From Deltaproteobacteria bacterium (lineage in GTDB: Bacteria; Myxococcota; XYA12-FULL-58-9): a stretch of 64,000 bases of DNA. Under the pieces are notes generated by a model. The model saw nothing but the letters and a program-made list of their open reading frames with translations, was not told the origin of the DNA and ran no database searches. The stretch spans positions 70,797-134,796 of the forward strand of contig JACRCV010000006.1 in NCBI GenBank assembly GCA_016218825.1, written 5' to 3'. This document shows, piece by piece, positions 20,318 to 27,829 of the stretch. The position numbers were made by a program, and so were the translations under genes. Position 1 is the first letter of the stretch, and each line of letters opens with the position of its first letter.

Positions 20318-21016
20318 GTGCCACACATCCTGGTGATCGAGGACGAGCGGGATCTCCAGAAGATCTTGGCGTTCAACCTGCGCCAAGCGGGCCACGAGGT
20401 CTCGTCGGTGCTGCGCGGCCAGGACGGTTTGCGGTTGGCGCGCGACAAGCACCCGGACCTCGTGCTGCTCGATCTCATGCTCCCCGACATCGCCGGCACC
20501 GAGGTCTGCAAGGCGTTGAAGCACGATGCGGCGACGCGCGGCATCGCGGTCATCATGCTCACCGCGAAGGGCGAGGAGGTCGACCGGGTGGTCGGCTTCG
20601 AGCTCGGCGCCGATGACTACGTGGTGAAGCCCTTCAGCGTCCGCGAGCTCCTGCTCCGCATCGACGCCGTCTTGCGCCGCAAAGACCAGGGCGGGAAGAG
20701 CGCCGGCACCGCGGTCTTTGGTCGTCTGCGAATCGACCGGGACGCGCATCGGATCTTCGTCGACAACCAGGAGGTCGTGCTCACCGCGCTCGAGCTCCGG
20801 CTGCTCGTGACCCTGCACGACCGCAAGAACCGGGTGCAGAGCCGCTCGACGCTGCTCGACGATGTCTGGGGCATTGCCGCGGAGATCACCACCCGCACCG
20901 TCGACACCCACGTGAAGCGCCTGCGCGCCAAGCTCGGTCCGGCAGGCTACTACATCGAGACGGTGCGCGGCGTCGGCTACCGTTTCTGTGAGGCGCCGGA
21001 GGGCGCCGGTCGGTGA
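20318..21016 (+). CDS. phoB: Phosphate response regulator PhoB
   Basis: The 232-residue protein has an N-terminal receiver (Asp52 in V-L-L-D-L-M-L-P as the phosphorylation site, acidic E8-D9 pair, T-A-K and K-P-F at the usual places). The C-terminal domain is an OmpR/PhoB winged-helix DNA-binding domain with R-T-V-D-T-H-V-K-R-L-R and G-Y-R-F. It activates phosphate-starvation genes. The start is GTG, with AGGAGG at the right distance. It overlaps phoR by four bases. A triple PHO-box array upstream suggests that it controls its own transcription, and the same kind of array precedes pstS. Confidence 0.92.
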   Translation: MPHILVIEDERDLQKILAFNLRQAGHEVSSVLRGQDGLRLARDKHPDLVLLDLMLPDIAGTEVCKALKHDAATRGIAVIMLTAKGEEVDRVVGFELGADDYVVKPFSVRELLLRIDAVLRRKDQGGKSAGTAVFGRLRIDRDAHRIFVDNQEVVLTALELRLLVTLHDRKNRVQSRSTLLDDVWGIAAEITTRTVDTHVKRLRAKLGPAGYYIETVRGVGYRFCEAPEGAGR

Positions 21017-22785
21017 GGCTGGGGATCCGCAGCAAGCTCTTCCTGGTCTCTCTCGGGCTCATCGTCGCGACCGTGGTGCCGGCCGACGCCATCCTCACCC
21101 ACGGCCTCGAGGCCGATCTCCTGGCTCGGATCCGCGACGACTTGGCGGTGCGGTTGGCGCTCGCCGAGAAGATCGTGAGCGCGGCGGTCGCGGCCGTCGA
21201 CGACCTCGCCGCGTGGGATGCCCTCGCCGACGAGCTCGGCCGGCGCTCGGGTTGCCGCGTGACGCTGGTGCGCAAAGACGGCGTCGTGGTCGGCGACTCC
21301 GAGGTGGAGCTTGAGAGAGTCGCAGCGCTGGACAACCACGCTGACCGTCCCGAGATCGCCGGCGCGCTCGTCGTCGGCCACGGCGCGAGCGTGCGCTGGA
21401 GCAAGACCCTCGCCGCGCGTTTGATGTACGTCGCCGTGCCCTTCGTCCGCTCGGGCACGGTCGCCGGCACCGTCCGGTTGGCGATGCCGCTCGCCGCGGC
21501 CGACGCCGCCATCTCGGCGCAGCGCCGGGTCGTCTACGGCGGCTCGGTATTGGCGCTGCTCTTGGCGCTGGTGCTGGCGAGCTTCGCGGCCGGGCAGACG
21601 GCTCGAGGGGTGCGCGCCGTCGCCGGCTTCGCGCAGCGGATCGCGGCCGGGGAGCTGGTGGCTCGGTCCAAGGCTCGCGGCCACGACGAGGTCGCCGATC
21701 TCTCTCGCGCCCTCGACCAGCTCGCCGACAACCTGGCGCGCGCCATCGCCTCGGTCCAGGCGGAGCGCGACTTATTGACCGGCGTGCTGCGCGGCATGCG
21801 CGAGGGCGTGCTGGTGCTCGACGCGCGTCGCCGGGTGACCCTCGCCAACGCCGCCCTGCGGGAGATGCTGCTCCTCGGCAACGACCTCGTCGCCCGGTCC
21901 GCGGTCGAGATCATCCGCAACGCCGAGCTTCTCCGGCTGTTGGACGAGGTCGCCGCCGCCGGCGCGGTGCTGTCGCGCGAGATCGAGCTCGGCGACCTCA
22001 AGCCCCGCCGGATCCTGATCCACGCCGGGCCGCTCGCCGGCACGCCCGGCGAGCTGTTGGCGGTCTTCGTTGACGTCACCGAGCTCCGGCGGCTCGAGAC
22101 CTTGCGCCGCGACTTCGTGGCCAACGTCTCCCACGAGCTGCGCACCCCGATCGCCGCGGTCGGCTCGGCGGCCGAGACCTTGCGTCGGGCCATCGAGACC
22201 CAGCCGGAGGCGGCCGGGGAGTTCGTCGAGATCATCGAGCGCCAGGCCGAGCGGCTGCGCCGCCTCGTCGACGATCTGATGGACCTGTCGCGCATCGAGT
22301 CGCGGCAGCTGAAGCTCGCCCCCGAGCCGATCTTGCTGCGGCCCTTCGTCGAGCGGGCGTTGCAGGCGGTCATCGAGCGGGCCCGGGCGCGCGGCATCGA
22401 GCTCAAGAACCTCATCGCCGCCGACTTGCCGGCATTGGCCGCCGACCGCCGGGCCCTCGAGCAGGTGTTGACGAACCTCGTCGACAACGCGGTCAAGTAC
22501 GCGAGCCAGGGAGCAACGGTCACCATCGGCGCCTCGCTCGCGGCCGGGCGGATGCGCCTCACCGTGAGCGACACCGGCCCCGGCATCGAGGCCCGGCACC
22601 TGCCGCGGCTCTTCGAGCGCTTCTACCGGGTCGACCCGGGGCGGTCGCGCGATCTCGGCGGCACCGGCCTCGGGCTGTCGATCGTCAAGCACCTCGTCGA
22701 GGCGATGCGGGGCACGGTCGAGGTCGAGAGCGTCGTCGGCGAGGGCTCGACCTTCGTCGTCGAGCTGCCGGCGATGGCGGCCTGA
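21013..22785 (+). CDS. phoR: Phosphate-sensing histidine kinase PhoR
   Basis: The 590-residue membrane kinase has a first membrane helix at about 8-28, an outside domain to about residue 170, and a second helix at about 173-195. HAMP and PAS-like regions come next, then the dimerisation domain with the phosphorylated His374 in N-V-S-H-E-L-R-T-P. The ATPase domain has an N-box (N-L-V-D-N-A-V-K-Y) and G-boxes (D-T-G-P-G-I and G-T-G-L-G-L-S-I-V). It phosphorylates PhoB when phosphate is low, through contact with PhoU and the Pst transporter. Unlike E. coli PhoR, which has almost no periplasmic part, this one has a large extracytoplasmic loop, so it may also sense a ligand directly. It uses GTG and overlaps phoB by four bases. 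Confidence 0.9.
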   Translation: MRLGIRSKLFLVSLGLIVATVVPADAILTHGLEADLLARIRDDLAVRLALAEKIVSAAVAAVDDLAAWDALADELGRRSGCRVTLVRKDGVVVGDSEVELERVAALDNHADRPEIAGALVVGHGASVRWSKTLAARLMYVAVPFVRSGTVAGTVRLAMPLAAADAAISAQRRVVYGGSVLALLLALVLASFAAGQTARGVRAVAGFAQRIAAGELVARSKARGHDEVADLSRALDQLADNLARAIASVQAERDLLTGVLRGMREGVLVLDARRRVTLANAALREMLLLGNDLVARSAVEIIRNAELLRLLDEVAAAGAVLSREIELGDLKPRRILIHAGPLAGTPGELLAVFVDVTELRRLETLRRDFVANVSHELRTPIAAVGSAAETLRRAIETQPEAAGEFVEIIERQAERLRRLVDDLMDLSRIESRQLKLAPEPILLRPFVERALQAVIERARARGIELKNLIAADLPALAADRRALEQVLTNLVDNAVKYASQGATVTIGASLAAGRMRLTVSDTGPGIEARHLPRLFERFYRVDPGRSRDLGGTGLGLSIVKHLVEAMRGTVEVESVVGEGSTFVVELPAMAA

Positions 22786-22862
22786 GCGCCGGGCTCAGTG
22801 CGTCACTCGCTTCTTGCCATGACACGCGGCGCGTGTCCGGCTCCGAGATCTGCACCGCGAGA

Positions 22863-22891
22863 TTGTCGCCCGGCTGTCACACGTTCGTCAC
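22863..22891 (+). promoter_or_regulatory. Triple PHO box upstream of pstS
   Basis: Three units 11 bases apart are seen: TTGTCGC (22863-22869), CTGTCAC (22874-22880) and TCGTCAC (22885-22891). A TATCCA-like -10 element starts about ten bases after the last unit (22902-22907), the geometry of PhoB-activated promoters in which the box replaces the -35 element. The site lies about 40 bases before pstS. Confidence 0.7.
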
Positions 22892-22932
22892 ACCGCCGCT
22901 GTATCCAAACCGGAGAGCGAAGGAGACTCACG

Positions 22933-23988
22933 ATGCACAAGAGCGTCCGCCTTTCCCTGGTCGTCATCGCGGTCTCGATGGGCTGCCGGAGCTCGCCGCC
23001 GGCGACGGTTTCTGGCGCCCCTATTTCACTCCAAGGAGCGGGCGCGACTTTCCCGTACCCCCTCTATTCGAAGTGGGTCGCCGAGTACCAGAAACGCGAT
23101 CCGCGGGTGCGCATCAACTACCAGTCCATCGGTTCTGGCGGCGGCATTCGGCAAATCACCGAACGAACGGTCGACTTCGGCGCCAGTGACGCACCGATGA
23201 ACGACGACGAGCTCGGCCGTGCCCCGGCGAAGCTCATCCATGTTCCGACGGCGCTCGGCGCGGTGGTCGTGACCTACAACCTCCCGGGCGTCTCCGGGCT
23301 GAAGCTTTCCGCCGAGCTCATCGCTGCGGTGTTTCTGGGCGAGATCTCGTCGTGGGCCGATCCGATGATCGCGGCCGCGAACCCGGGGCTGAAGCTGCCG
23401 GCGGGCCCGCTGATGGTGACCTACCGCTCGGACGGCAGCGGCACCACCGCGGTGTTCACTGAATACCTCGCGAAGGTCAGCCCCGCCTGGAAAGAGAAGG
23501 TCGGCAGCGGCAAGAGCGTGAAGTTTCCGGTGGGCCTCGGCGCCAAGGGCAATGAGGGGGTGGCCGGCCAGATCAAGGCGACCCCCGGGAGCCTCGGCTA
23601 TGTCGAGCTCGCCTACGCCAAGCAAGCGGGGCTCGCCTTTGCTCTGGTGCAGAACCGGGCCAAGGCTTTCGTCGCGCCGTCGGTCGACAGCGTCAAGGCC
23701 GCGGCGGCGGCGGTGGCCGATACGATCCCCGACGACCTCCGGGTCTCGATCGTCGATCCCCCGGGCGCCGACGCCTACCCGATCGCGTCGTTCACCTACA
23801 TCCTCGCCTACGCCGCGCAGCCCGACGCCGTCAAAGGCAAGGCGCTGGCGCAGTTCCTGTGGTGGGCGATCCATGACGGCCAGCTCCTGGCCCCCGGGCT
23901 CGACTACGCTCCGCTCCCGGCGGCCCTCGCCCTGCGGATCGAAGCCAAGCTCAAGCTCCTCGAGGCCAACGGTGCGCCGCTGCTGTAG
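22933..23988 (+). CDS. pstS: Phosphate-binding lipoprotein PstS
   Basis: The 351-residue protein has a signal peptide with lipobox S-M-G-C at about residue 18, then the phosphate-binding fold. G-A-G-A-T-F-P-Y-P-L-Y is the start of the mature domain. G-S-G-G-G-I-R-Q-I-T and F-G-A-S-D-A-P-M supply phosphate ligands, and R-S-D-G-S-G-T-T is the second phosphate loop. It captures phosphate outside the inner membrane and delivers it to PstCA. AAGGAG lies seven bases before the chosen ATG; the frame open further upstream crosses the PHO box and is not coding. Length is typical. Confidence 0.95.
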   Translation: MHKSVRLSLVVIAVSMGCRSSPPATVSGAPISLQGAGATFPYPLYSKWVAEYQKRDPRVRINYQSIGSGGGIRQITERTVDFGASDAPMNDDELGRAPAKLIHVPTALGAVVVTYNLPGVSGLKLSAELIAAVFLGEISSWADPMIAAANPGLKLPAGPLMVTYRSDGSGTTAVFTEYLAKVSPAWKEKVGSGKSVKFPVGLGAKGNEGVAGQIKATPGSLGYVELAYAKQAGLAFALVQNRAKAFVAPSVDSVKAAAAAVADTIPDDLRVSIVDPPGADAYPIASFTYILAYAAQPDAVKGKALAQFLWWAIHDGQLLAPGLDYAPLPAALALRIEAKLKLLEANGAPLL

Positions 23989-24003: not shown

Positions 24004-25002
24004 ATGCAGCGCCCGAACGCCCTCGACCTCCGTCGGGCGCTGACTCCGAGCGCGAGCTTCTGGGCGTGGACCGGGACCGAGGCCAATCTCGGCGATCGTT
24101 TGTTCCATGGCGCCGCGGCGCTTTGCGCCTTCGGAGTGGTCGCCGCCCTCGCAGGGATGGGCGTCGAGATGATCCGGGCCTCGCTGTCGAGCATCGAGCG
24201 CTTCGGGCTCGGTTTCGTGACCGAGGTCACCTGGGATCCGGTGCGCGAGCTCTTTGGCGCCGCGCCCTTCATCTTCGGCACGATCGTCTCGTCGTTGTTG
24301 GCGCTCGCGATCGCGGTGCCGGTGGCGGTCGGCGTCGCGATCTTCCTCGCCGAGCTCGCGCCCGCGTGGCTGCGCACCCCGGCGAGCTTCGTCGTCGAGC
24401 TGCTGGCGGCGATCCCGAGCGTGGTCTACGGCCTCTGGGGCGTCTTCGTGCTCGCGCCCTGGCTGCGCGACACGGTGCAGCCGGCGCTCGCGGCGGCCCT
24501 GGGCTTTCTCCCGTTCTTCGGCGGCCCGGCGCGCGGCTTCGGCATGCTCGCCGGTGGGCTCATCCTGGCGATCATGATCTTGCCGACCATCGCCTCGGTG
24601 AGCCGCGACGTGATGGTCGCGGTGCCGACCTCGTATCGTGAGGCGGCGCTGGCGCTCGGCGCGACGCGCTTCGAGACGGTGCAGGTCGCGGTGTTGCCGC
24701 ACGCCAAGGCCGGGATCGTCGGCGCCGTCATCCTCGGCCTCGGGCGGGCGCTCGGCGAGACGATGGCGGTCACCATGGTGATCGGCAACCGCGCTGAGAT
24801 CTCGGCGTCGCTGTTCGCGCCGGCGGCGACACTCGCGAGCGTCATCGCCAACGAGTACGCCGAGGCGACGAGCGACCTCTACCTCGCGGCCCTCTCCGAG
24901 CTCGGGCTGATGCTGTTCGCCGTGACCCTGATCCTCAACATCGGCGCCCGGCTGCTGGTCGGCAAGGTCGGCCGGGCGGCGCCGGGCGTCAGGGGAGGCT
25001 GA
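24004..25002 (+). CDS. pstC: Phosphate ABC transporter permease PstC
   Basis: The 332-residue inner-membrane protein has about six to seven hydrophobic helices and the permease EAA-type loop (Y-R-E-A-A-L-A-L-G-A-T-R-F-E-T) that contacts PstB, followed by G-R-A-L-G-E-T-M-A-V. It forms the phosphate channel with PstA. It starts 15 bases after pstS. Phosphate importers are normally made at low level until PhoB activation, which fits the PHO box before pstS as the promoter of the whole transport operon. Confidence 0.94.
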   Translation: MQRPNALDLRRALTPSASFWAWTGTEANLGDRLFHGAAALCAFGVVAALAGMGVEMIRASLSSIERFGLGFVTEVTWDPVRELFGAAPFIFGTIVSSLLALAIAVPVAVGVAIFLAELAPAWLRTPASFVVELLAAIPSVVYGLWGVFVLAPWLRDTVQPALAAALGFLPFFGGPARGFGMLAGGLILAIMILPTIASVSRDVMVAVPTSYREAALALGATRFETVQVAVLPHAKAGIVGAVILGLGRALGETMAVTMVIGNRAEISASLFAPAATLASVIANEYAEATSDLYLAALSELGLMLFAVTLILNIGARLLVGKVGRAAPGVRGG

Positions 25003-25003
25003 C

Positions 25004-25846
25004 GTGGACGCGTATCGGAGGCGCAAGGTCATCGATGTCGGGGCGCGGGCCGCGTGTGTCGCGGCGACGCTCCTCGCCGTCGTGCCTCTCGTCAGCGTGC
25101 TCGCCTACGTGGTGGTGCGCGGCGCGGCGGGACTGAGCTGGAGCTTCTTTACCGCTCTGCCGCAGCCGGTGGGAGAGGCGGGCGGCGGGGTCGCGAACGC
25201 CATCCTCGGGTCGCTGCAGCTCGTCGGCATCGCCTGCGTCCTTGGGGTGCCGGTCGGGGTCTTGGCCGGGATCTATCTCGCCGAGTACGGTCGGGGACGG
25301 TTCGCGACCGCGGTTCGTTACGCCGCCGACGTTATGTCGGGGATCCCGTCGATCGCCGTCGGCATCTTCGTCTACACCCTGCTGGTGCTGTCGATGCGCC
25401 ACTTCTCCGCCCTGGCGGGTGGCGTCGCGCTGGCGGTGCTGATGCTGCCGACGGTGACCCGCACGACCGAGGAGCTCTTGAAGCTGGTGCCCGACTCGTT
25501 GCGGGAGGCGGGGCTCGCGCTCGGGGTGCCGCGCTGGCGGGTCGTCCTGAAGGTCGTGCTGCGCACCGGCGCCCCTGGGATCGCGACCGGGATCATGCTG
25601 GCCGTGGCCCGTGCCGCCGGCGAGACCGCGCCGCTGTTGTTCACGGCGTTCAATAACCGCTTCTGGTCGGCGAGCCTCGTCGAGCCGATCGCGTCCTTGC
25701 CGGTGCAGATCTTCACCTACGCCGTGTCACCCTACGAGGAGTGGCACCGACAGGCCTGGGCCGCAGCGCTCGTGCTGGTCGTGCTGGTCTTGTTGATGAA
25801 CGCGGGCGCCCGGGTCCTGACCCGCGCCCGAGGGAGGTCGCGATGA
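25004..25846 (+). CDS. pstA: Phosphate ABC transporter permease PstA
   Basis: The 280-residue protein has six membrane helices and the EAA-type loop [15 protein letters not shown], and a conserved R-A-A-G-E-T-A-P-L segment near the end. It pairs with PstC. The start is GTG with GGGGAGG upstream, one base after the pstC stop. Its stop overlaps the pstB start (ATGA), so translation of the two is coupled. Confidence 0.94.
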
Positions 25847-26694
25847 TGGCCGTCGAAGCGAGCCGCGAGGCGGCACCCACCCCGGGTTCTGCCGGCGACA
25901 CCGCCAGGTCGGCCGAGGCGCGCGCCGCGGCAACGGCGCCGGCGGTAAAGATGCAGACCGAAGCGTTGCGGGCCTGGTTCGGCGCGCACGAGGTCTTGAA
26001 GGCGGTCTCGCTGAGCATTCCGGAGCGACGGGTGACGGCGGTGATCGGTCCGTCCGGCTGCGGCAAGTCGACCTTCATCCGTTGCCTGAACCGCATGCAC
26101 GAGGTCGTCCCCGGGGCGCGCTCCGCAGGCGCGGTGCTGCTCGACGGCGTCGACATCTTCGAGCGCGGCGTCGACCCGGTGCTGGTCCGCCGGCGCGTCG
26201 GCATGGTCTTTCAACGCGCCAACCCCTTCCCGGCGATGTCGATCGCCGACAACGTCCTCGCCGGCCTGCGGCTGAACGGCGTCCGACCGCGACACCCGGA
26301 GGAGGTCGTCGAGCGGGCCCTCGCGCAGGCGGCGCTCTGGGACGAGGTCAAGGACATCCTGTCGCGCTCCGGCGCCAGCCTCTCGGGGGGCCAGCAGCAG
26401 CGCTTGTGCATCGCGCGCACCCTGGCGCTCGAGCCCGAGGTCGTGCTGATGGACGAGCCCTGCTCGGCGCTCGATCCGATTGCCACCGCTCGGATAGAGG
26501 AGTTGATTCACGAGCTCAAGGACCGCTACACCATCGTCATCGTCACCCACAACATGCAGCAAGCGGCGCGGGTCTCGGACTTCACGGCCTTCTTCTACAT
26601 CGGCGAGCTCGTCGAGCACGGCGAGACCGACGCGCTCTTCACTCGGCCGCAGAAGGCCCGCACCGAGGACTACATCACCGGCCGATTCGGCTGA
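25843..26694 (+). CDS. pstB: Phosphate ABC transporter ATPase PstB
   Basis: The 283-residue ATPase has Walker A G-P-S-G-C-G-K-S at 69-76, the signature L-S-G-G-Q at 180-184, Walker B V-V-L-M-D-E-P and the switch His in V-T-H-N-M-Q-Q. It energises phosphate import by PstSCA. An N-terminal extension of about 35 residues rich in Ala and Glu precedes the usual start of the family, and a later in-frame ATG at residue 37 is possible; the first ATG was taken because it overlaps pstA and has GGGAGG upstream. Confidence 0.95.
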
Positions 26695-26704
26695 CGAGGA
26701 GCAC

Positions 26705-27829
26705 ATGCCGGTCAAACACACCGATCGGGAGTACGAGGCCGAGCTCGGCCGGCTGCGCGAGCAGCTGTTGTCGATGGGCGCCAGCGTCGAGGAGATGATC
26801 TCCAAGAGCGTCAAGGCCCTGGTCGAGCGCGACACGCCGCTCGCGCACCAGATGATCGAGTTCGACCAGGAGATCAACCGGCTCGAGGTCGACACCGACG
26901 AGCTTTGTCTCAAGGTCCTGGCGCGCCGGCAGCCGGTGGCCTCGGATCTACGCTTCATTACCTTGACGATGAAGATGGTGACCGACCTGGAGCGCATCGG
27001 CGACCTCGGCGTGAACATCTGCGAGCGGGTCATCGAGCTCAACCAGGAGCCGCCGTTGAAACCCTACGTGGATCTGCCGACCATGGCGGAGACGGCGCGC
27101 AGCATGGTCCGCGAGGCGCTCGACGCCTTCGTGGGCCGGGACGCCGACCGGGCACAGCTGGTGATCGAGCGCGACCGGATCGTCGACGCCTATTACGGCC
27201 AGACCTTCCGCGAGCTCTTGACCTACATGATGGAGGATCCGCGCAACATCTATCGTGCGACCCGGGTGCAGGCGATCGCGAAGCACCTGGAGCGCATCGG
27301 CGACCACGCCACCAACCTGGCGGAGATGGTGGTCTTCATGGTCAAGGGCCAGGACATCCGCCACGTCGGGCGTCGCGACACCTCGGCCGCCTCGCGCGTG
27401 CCCCACGGGGTGCTGTTCTTGTGCGTGCACAACGCCGCGCGCAGCCAGATGGCCGAAGGGCTGGCGCAACGACTGTTCCCGCCGGGCGTCCGGGTCTGGA
27501 GCGCCGGCTCCGTTCCTGCTGCCGTCGTCGACCCGCGCGCCGTCGAGGCGATGCGGGAGATTGGCATCGACATCACCAAGCAGCGGCCGAAGGCCATGAG
27601 CGACGTGCCGCTCGGGGACATCGACACCGTGATCACCCTGTGCGCCGAGGAGGTCTGCCCGGCGTTCTCGATGCCGCTTTGCAGGGAGAGCTGGGCGCTG
27701 CCCGATCCGGCCGACGTCAAGGGCGGCGATGAGGAGGTTCGGAAGAGCTTCCGTCAGGTGCGGGACGCCCTGCGGCGTCGCATCGAGGCCTTCGTGAACG
27801 AGCGGCGGGGACCAGAGCCGGTGTCGTGA
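26705..27829 (+). CDS. phoU: PhoU fused to a low-molecular-weight phosphatase/arsenate reductase domain
   Basis: The 374-residue protein has two parts. Residues of about 1-222 are a complete PhoU with its two repeats, each marked by L-E-R-I-G-D (95-100 and 195-200). PhoU links PstSCAB to PhoR and shuts off the regulon when phosphate is plentiful. After a short linker, residues 236-370 form an ArsC/LMW-phosphatase domain: V-L-F-L-C-V-H-N-A-A-R-S with nucleophile Cys240 and Arg246 in the C-x5-R loop, Cys313 and Cys318 in place of the redox pair of thioredoxin-coupled arsenate reductases, and the general-acid Asp334 in L-P-D-P. There is one continuous frame with no sign of a frameshift. The domain should either reduce arsenate to arsenite or remove phosphate from a protein. 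The gene starts ten bases after pstB, closing the operon. Confidence 0.9.
   Translation: MPVKHTDREYEAELGRLREQLLSMGASVEEMISKSVKALVERDTPLAHQMIEFDQEINRLEVDTDELCLKVLARRQPVASDLRFITLTMKMVTDLERIGDLGVNICERVIELNQEPPLKPYVDLPTMAETARSMVREALDAFVGRDADRAQLVIERDRIVDAYYGQTFRELLTYMMEDPRNIYRATRVQAIAKHLERIGDHATNLAEMVVFMVKGQDIRHVGRRDTSAASRVPHGVLFLCVHNAARSQMAEGLAQRLFPPGVRVWSAGSVPAAVVDPRAVEAMREIGIDITKQRPKAMSDVPLGDIDTVITLCAEEVCPAFSMPLCRESWALPDPADVKGGDEEVRKSFRQVRDALRRRIEAFVNERRGPEPVS

Follow-up and report, generated by a model that had tools for sequence, protein, structure and literature searches.

Locus and gene context

The window, that is, the whole stretch of DNA that was analysed (64,000 nucleotides), carries a phoB-phoR-pstSCAB cluster that is followed by a single gene in which phoU is joined to an arsC-type sequence (Table 1). 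The gene starts 10 nt past the pstB stop codon, with GAGGAG just 5' of its ATG, and was thus correctly placed at the end of a pho/pst operon by the original prediction. phoU is commonly the last gene beside pstSCAB. On the 3' side the fusion gene is followed by a convergent aminotransferase gene. The longest pstB ORF overlaps pstA, and the true pstB start is probably located downstream. The window genome (G000; 6.5 Mb, 121 contigs, 96.5% complete) yielded no second match to the fusion protein, neither to its PhoU half nor to its ArsC half, and the fusion was the sole match to PF01451 in this genome.

Table 1. Features of the pho/pst cluster and of the fusion gene (window coordinates).
Feature	Position	Strand	Basis
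phoB-type response regulator	20318..21016	+	PF00072, PF00486; best NCBIfam match PhoB, under cut-off
phoR/pnpS-type histidine kinase	21013..22785	+	HAMP, PAS, HisKA, HATPase; best NCBIfam match PnpS, under cut-off
pstS (ORF, true start uncertain)	22798..23988	+	TIGR00975 over cut-off
pstC	24004..25002	+	TIGR02138 over cut-off
pstA	25004..25846	+	TIGR00974 over cut-off
pstB (longest ORF)	25741..26694	+	TIGR00972 over cut-off, residues 71-317
phoU::arsC fusion gene	26705..27829	+	374 aa plus stop, single ORF
PhoU core, residues 1-222, two PhoU repeats	26705..27370	+	PF01895, TIGR02135, Foldseek
Linker, residues 223-233	27371..27403	+	low model confidence
ArsC-type LMW-phosphatase-fold domain, residues 234-374	27404..27826	+	PF01451, Foldseek 1jl3
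Nucleophile Cys240 codon, P-loop CVHNAARS	27422..27424	+	
P-loop Arg246 codon	27440..27442	+	
Redox Cys313 codon	27641..27643	+	
Redox Cys318 codon	27656..27658	+	
Asp334 codon, general acid position	27704..27706	+	

Domain composition of the fusion protein

Both Pfam domains were found above cut-off in the one uninterrupted frame, in agreement with the claimed PhoU-ArsC fusion. PhoU (PF01895) scored 164.2 bits (cut-off 23.5) in two stretches, and LMWPc (PF01451) scored 66.1 bits (gathering cut-off 23.2) over residues 236-363. The LERIGD motif is present twice and, together with the two PF01895 stretches, fits the complete two-repeat PhoU that had been proposed. Residues 9-218 reached 241.4 bits with NCBIfam TIGR02135 (PhoU equivalog cut-off 130.25). 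With TIGR02691 (arsenate reductase, thioredoxin), residues 236-363 scored 101.3 bits, which is under the cut-off of 174.3, and the C-terminal half was therefore filed as an ArsC-type domain and not as a TIGR02691 equivalog. The claimed residues Cys240, Arg246, Cys313/Cys318 and Asp334 were all found at their positions and correspond to the catalytic residues of the ArsC proteins of B. subtilis and S. aureus. In the alignment, C313 and C318 fall on a Cys pair of 1jl3 and 2cd7, with a spacing that is two residues shorter. Third-position GC content remained high across the junction, at 0.94 (PhoU), 0.91 (linker) and 0.89 (ArsC). In-frame GTG codons are located at residues 232, 236 and 241, and an additional internal start may lie in this region.

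In an AlphaFold2 model (mean pLDDT 93) the two domains are each well defined, and residues 221-230 have a mean pLDDT of 51. As the pTM of 0.68 does not support a confident domain arrangement, the model gives no structural hint of regulation. With Foldseek, the PhoU half matched 1t72 and 4q25 (TM about 0.95 of target) and the ArsC half matched 1jl3 (TM 0.88 of target), with tyrosine phosphatases ranking lower. By sequence, the best 15 of 19 matches of the ArsC half were arsenate reductases, and phosphatase-type proteins appeared only among the last four. Judged from sequence and model, the tethered domain is derived from the arsenate-reductase branch of the LMW-phosphatase fold.

Distribution of the fusion

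Relatives of the fusion, which the original prediction had considered possible in databases, were found beyond this assembly. At least 16 uninterrupted fusion ORFs were present in at least 15 genomes, one of them (G908) cut by a contig end. G908 was counted among the 16, and was omitted from the D334 and full-set counts, the ArsC tree and the invariant-column and Pfam scans. Pfam PhoU and LMWPc were detected in 15 of 15 fusions scanned (G908 left out). Within the phylum of the window genome, 7 of 195 genomes contained a complete uninterrupted fusion (group A: G000, G002, G006, G007, G110, G151 and G152); in the class of the window genome it was present in 4 of 8. Among 339 genomes drawn from a second phylum-level group, at least eight contained a total of at least nine further uninterrupted fusions; these form group B (G875, G1038, G913 and the truncated G908) and group C (G1038, G1052, G1149, G1110 and G1175). 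A profile search of the class of G1038 (52 genomes) recovered the same six fusions in five genomes and none extra. For two other groups (395 and 251 genomes), no uninterrupted fusion was among the matches listed. In the searches of 339, 395 and 251 genomes, few candidates were scored per genome (no more than 5-7 in the latter two), so that the counts are lower bounds and divergent fusions may be missed. Of 1,148 plasmid records with a match, only a Natronomonas plasmid matched over 80% of the query at one place, and it was rejected as a fusion, since its phoU features and LMW phosphatase are separate features in two pieces.

Groups A and B have the fusion gene after pstB. Group C fusions (31-33% identity to the window protein) are located at the opposite (pstS) end of the pst cluster. 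In three of the five group C loci pstS is the next gene after the fusion (tblastn); in G1149 and G1110 the pstS query was unmatched, and the first recognised pst gene after the fusion was pstC or pstA. Each group C cluster ends with two pstB copies. Assignment of group C to PhoU_div/DUF47 was rejected, because PF01865 was matched by just 1 of 15 fusions scanned. G1038 carries one group B and one group C fusion in separate pst clusters. At locus L212 of this genome, two pst clusters are a few kb apart, each closing with a PhoB-type match.

Two further genomes were excluded from the 16 fusions. In G164, ArsC is broken off after about 41 residues by an apparent assembly inversion. In G165 (L157 / L094), an in-frame TGA splits PhoU from a diverged ArsC in which the catalytic motifs are still there; read from its sequence, this locus is a split or re-split form of the fusion. 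L011 (match to residue 251) and G563 were ruled out as truncated fusions, as a stop codon directly follows PhoU in both.

The broken versions of G164 and G165 in drafts are what an assembly or annotation artefact might leave. This explanation is hardly credible, given uninterrupted frames beside pst genes in 15 assemblies. Chance or misassembly was rejected on the same grounds: the junction recurs in independent assemblies beside pst genes, and is neither confined to the window assembly nor a misjoin.

ArsC-type genes near Pho genes

In G661, G669 and G701 (3 of 251 genomes, Thermoflexus group), pstB, phoU and arsC are separate and adjacent (pstB identified by eye), with phoU and arsC in one frame. 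In three Chloroflexota records (L043, L044, L084) and one Omnitrophota record (L065), arsC is located just before phoU; a pstB end lies just upstream in L043 and L065 (by eye). ArsC-type genes thus turn up repeatedly beside Pho genes. The 80 loci inspected were partly picked via ArsC peptides, and no frequency was drawn from them.

Several further arrangements were recorded. L193, L194 and L195 have a separate arsC-type gene directly beside phoU, and both orders (arsC-phoU and phoU-arsC) were seen in Chloroflexota-type and Omnitrophota genomes. In L160 (G173), a stand-alone arsC-type gene closes the locus phoB-phoR-Pit accessory-Pit-Pit-porin (by eye). L019:3426-5660 (JACPFE010000377) encodes a PhoR-type kinase (HAMP, PAS, HisKA, HATPase) with a C-terminally fused LMWPc domain in which all five catalytic residues are present; a separate phoU is located upstream in this locus, and the kinase fusion is a single case. 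L162:5774-8194 (G116) is an 807-residue frame in which two ArsA-like ATPase halves come after an ArsC-type domain (by eye), possibly another ArsC fusion or a read-through between genes. L137:1069-2421 (G048) is a 451-residue frame with two tandem ArsC-type domains.

Number of fusion origins

In PhoU trees, A-type fusions were intermixed with unfused relatives in one clade (support 96/90 and 99/93), and the fusion was therefore gained or lost several times. In the first PhoU tree (56 of 109 PhoU rows), a single clade of all eight fused rows from the window genome's own phylum had an AU p of 0.038. In the second (54 rows; G164 and many other PhoU rows left out, long-branch warning for G1110), p was 0.094 for A+B and 0.022 for A+B+C as one clade. 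The PhoU of group C sits on a long branch that separates with 100/99 support. In the ArsC trees, one clade was not rejected (A, p = 0.26 and 0.54; A+B, 0.33; A+B+C, 0.31), but these trees are too weak to decide; the later one omits seven loci (near-copies, the split copy of G165, and L059). A single origin with one loss is not favoured, with two AU tests on PhoU trees against it (p = 0.038 and 0.022) and the ArsC trees non-rejecting. At least two fusion events are the simplest reading, since pst position, linker length and PhoU ancestry differ, and group C probably arose separately. Unfused PhoU proteins that are up to 72% identical over the PhoU part (L014 and L012, 72%; L011, 71%) have no such domain in their ORF, which shows that PhoU can do without it.

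Catalytic residues in the fused copies

All five catalytic residues were present in 3 of 15 complete copies (G000, G007 and G002), and none of the five positions was invariant among 15 aligned fusions. In the alignment, C240 was retained in 10 of 16 fusions and replaced by Ser (G875, G1038a, G908), Asp (G1110, G1175) or Gly (G1149). R246 was present in 13 of 16, the exceptions being G151 and G152 with Gln and G1149 with Gly. For D334 the count was 13 of 15, as G151 and G152 have Asn at this position. The redox residues were retained less often (C313 in 8 of 16, C318 in 5 of 16), and the complete pair was absent from 9 of 9 group B and C copies; in G1175 a Cys sits a few columns past the C318 position. 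The P-loop Cys or Arg was gone in 8 of 16 copies. Invariant columns of the ArsC part (15 aligned) include W330, K296, D289, S266-G268 (SAG) and M249-E251 (MAE). A model of the Cys-to-Asp copy of G1175 had a pLDDT of 94.8, and its ArsC half matched 1jl3 best (TM 0.91 of target). The catalytic set was intact in 3 of 7 group A copies versus 34 of 39 other ArsC rows (Fisher p = 0.02), a comparison for illustration only, because the rows are related to one another and a Cys lies beside the aligned site in four of the five non-intact rows among the 39. By its predicted active site, the ArsC-type domain of the fusions is often a pseudoenzyme.

The original prediction had also offered a phosphotyrosine phosphatase acting on the signalling complex; on this reading, a CX5R-Asp site would dephosphorylate PhoR, PhoB or another partner. 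The LMW-PTP fold would suit this, 8 of 15 complete copies retain CX5R and Asp, and five of these (G006, G110, G913, G1038b and G1052) miss one or both redox Cys. The fusion of an ArsC-type domain to a PhoR-type kinase in L019 points the same way. ArsC and LMW-PTP are also noted to resemble each other in structure, with one protein reported to have both activities (cited part of PMC2887360). However, fold and sequence searches rank arsenate reductases ahead of tyrosine phosphatases, half of the copies (8/16) have lost the nucleophile or the Arg, and the L019 kinase fusion itself retains the redox Cys pair. The phosphatase option emerged weakened, and we regard it as quite unlikely.

Selection on the ArsC-type domain

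dN/dS was calculated by NG86; close pairs were few, dS was high, and for most pairs no YN00 estimate was obtained. For G151-G152, dN/dS was 0.13 (ArsC), 0.05 (PhoU), 0.06 (PstB) and 0.16 (PstS). dN was 0.163 for ArsC versus 0.054 for PhoU, about three times faster, and some relaxation of the fused ArsC part is possible in this pair. Because the Arg-to-Gln and Asp-to-Asn changes are common to G151 and G152, their divergence postdates the losses, unless these occurred in parallel. Three group B pairs, which share the Cys-to-Ser change, gave ArsC values of 0.14, 0.08 and 0.05 versus PhoU values of 0.11, 0.10 and 0.18; these pairs come from three genomes and are not independent, and the two with G908 cover 82 codons. 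Stand-alone ArsC ranged from 0.11 to 0.39 (66 pairs). Distant group B and C pairs (dN/dS up to 0.74) were not used, as divergence was too high for the estimator.

Where catalytic residues were lost, the codons differ synonymously between copies (Ser TCG/TCC, Gln CAG/CAA), which speaks against sequencing errors, and the change from Cys TGC to Asp GAC requires two base changes. The domain appears constrained despite its missing catalytic residues, which points to a non-catalytic function.

The domain might alternatively be a neutral passenger, joined to PhoU when a stop codon was lost between adjacent phoU and arsC genes, with a role in folding only. Adjacent genes in one frame, as in G661, G669 and G701, would make such a read-through easy, catalytic residues drift, and close unfused PhoU relatives manage without the domain. 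The fusion is, however, found both after pstB and at the opposite end of the pst cluster, in several families of its own phylum and in a second phylum-level group, and dN/dS is low in close pairs. We consider a passenger very unlikely.

Arsenic genes in genomes with the fusion

Genomes were mostly drafts, and the gene absences given below are not proofs. G000 contains one acr3, which is unlinked to the fusion locus. No LMWP-type arsC was found beside it up to the contig end, and no arsR was seen by eye. This acr3 (L163:7179-8922, contig C13) is followed by an MqsA-type antitoxin gene, and the contig ends 1.7 kb on. ArsB (PF02040) and glutaredoxin-type ArsC (PF03960) were not found in G000, and PF03960 was absent from 9 of 9 genomes searched. 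In G007, acr3 is part of an arsR-acr3-methyltransferase cluster without LMWP-type arsC. G002 has the full residue set, yet no acr3 or ArsB match, contrary to what would be expected of a reductase. In G151 and G152 the ArsC domain is retained, although both acr3 and ArsB are missing.

The fusion was the only LMWPc match in the three genomes with the full residue set. The fused copy was intact in 3 of 7 genomes without another ArsC-type match (complete in G000, G002 and G007, incomplete in G151, G152, G913 and G1052) and in 0 of 5 genomes with one (G006, G110, G875, G1038 and G908), a small contrast among related genomes that is not statistically firm. G1149, G1110 and G1175 were not in this tally, and the other ArsC matches of G875, G1038 and G908 were counted whatever their residues. 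The trend fits a reductase that is retained where needed.

One account of these data would be a plain arsenate reductase that is tethered for Pst-borne arsenate, with the degenerate copies as decaying remnants. It would explain that full sets occur where no other LMWPc protein was matched, that acr3 of G000 and G007 has no adjoining LMWP-type arsC, that the fused copy is incomplete wherever another ArsC-type match exists, and that in G165 a TGA stands ahead of a diverged ArsC. The incomplete copies are nevertheless not decay-like: dN/dS is 0.05-0.14 in four close pairs sharing a loss, the complete redox pair is lacking throughout groups B and C, and the 3/7 versus 0/5 contrast is small. We consider this account unlikely.

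The original idea that the fusion ties arsenate detoxification to Pst thus divides. It is plausible for the window copy, with a full residue set, an acr3 in the genome and no second LMWP-type or Grx-type ArsC found. It is doubtful as a family role, with complete sets in 3 of 15 copies and damaged copies that look constrained in close pairs. Arsenate detoxification is unlikely to be the function common to the family. The window domain itself is plausibly a working arsenate reductase that is expressed with Pst, as far as its sequence indicates.

Proposed function

We give an even chance to the reading that the fusion is a PhoU with a regulatory, mainly non-catalytic ArsC-type module, of which the window copy is also a reductase. 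The ArsC-type accessory domain would hang on a flexible C-terminal tether of PhoU. The PhoU half would couple PstSCAB to PhoR as ordinary PhoU does, a role suggested by its sequence, predicted fold, gene position and status as the sole PhoU-like match in the genome. Across the family the domain would act non-catalytically, with binding of an oxyanion or a partner altering the contact of PhoU with PstB or PhoR; residue losses under apparent purifying selection are the basis for this role. The window copy would probably also be a thioredoxin-coupled arsenate reductase, made when PhoB activates Pst: arsenate would enter via the Pst importer, and Acr3 from another locus would export arsenite.

In a Lactiplantibacillus strain, less As(V) was incorporated when pstC and phoU were disrupted (cited part of PMC11084836). 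In Salmonella, PhoU residues are needed for contacting the PAS and kinase domains of PhoR (PMC9239213, in the part cited). Given arsenate uptake by Pst and the contact between PhoU and PhoR, a tethered domain would be placed to meet arsenate and to alter PhoR contact. The recurrence of a conserved domain minus its catalytic residues suggests a new regulatory attachment and not just arsenic detoxification. We tentatively go one step further, with somewhat less than even confidence, and propose a new class of PhoU with an ArsC-derived pseudoenzyme that was fused at least twice independently and serves as a sensor or docking module tuning Pst-PhoR, while some lineages, that of the window genome among them, keep the ancestral arsenate reductase chemistry.

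If this is true, one protein would both sense phosphate status and detoxify the toxic analogue of phosphate. In the fusion, the control of phosphate uptake and the handling of arsenate would be physically and directly joined. To our knowledge, this link is otherwise known only as gene linkage and shared regulation. A domain that is inactivated yet retained on PhoU would also be a natural handle on PhoU control of the Pho regulon, which is said to lack a clear explanation so far (PMC9239213, same part).

Comparison with known systems

No description of a PhoU-ArsC/LMWP fusion was found in open-licence literature, judged by titles and abstract starts. With known PhoU proteins (TIGR02135, PF01895; 1t72, 4q25), the window protein shares the two repeats, the predicted fold, the pst position and a score over the curated cut-off. 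It differs by the additional ArsC-type domain of about 140 residues behind a linker, whereas the unfused ORFs scanned end at most 47 residues past PhoU.

With thioredoxin-coupled ArsC (pI258 / B. subtilis class), the domain shares the fold, the CX5R P-loop, two further Cys and the Asp, and its identity to 1jl3, 1ljl and 8p5n is 34-40% (fold alignment). The redox pair of that class is Cys82/Cys89 (S. aureus numbering), that is, C-x6-C, whereas the window domain has C-x4-C. In contrast to the class, the window domain is located outside an ars operon, is fused to PhoU and scores under the equivalog cut-off, and 12 of the 15 full-length fused copies lack part of the residue set. With respect to LMW-PTP, the closest solved relatives of the domain are arsenate reductases and not protein phosphatases.

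ArsC has been found fused to Acr3, aquaglyceroporin, ArsR and ArsN, and a suggestion that it is seemingly predestined for fusions is cited in the same review (PMC6205960, in the part cited). As in these proteins, ArsC appears here as a portable module. The partners listed in that part of the review export or channel arsenic, repress in response to As, or are ArsN, whereas the partner here is the phosphate-signalling protein PhoU, and most PhoU-fused copies are catalytically incomplete. Arsenic islands hold pst, pho and ars genes together (PMC3834237), but as separate linked genes and not as one polypeptide; the word 'fusion' occurs 0 times in that text. A further parallel is the PhoR-type kinase fusion of L019, in which an ArsC-type domain is likewise attached to a Pho signalling protein, with a different partner and with all five residues retained.
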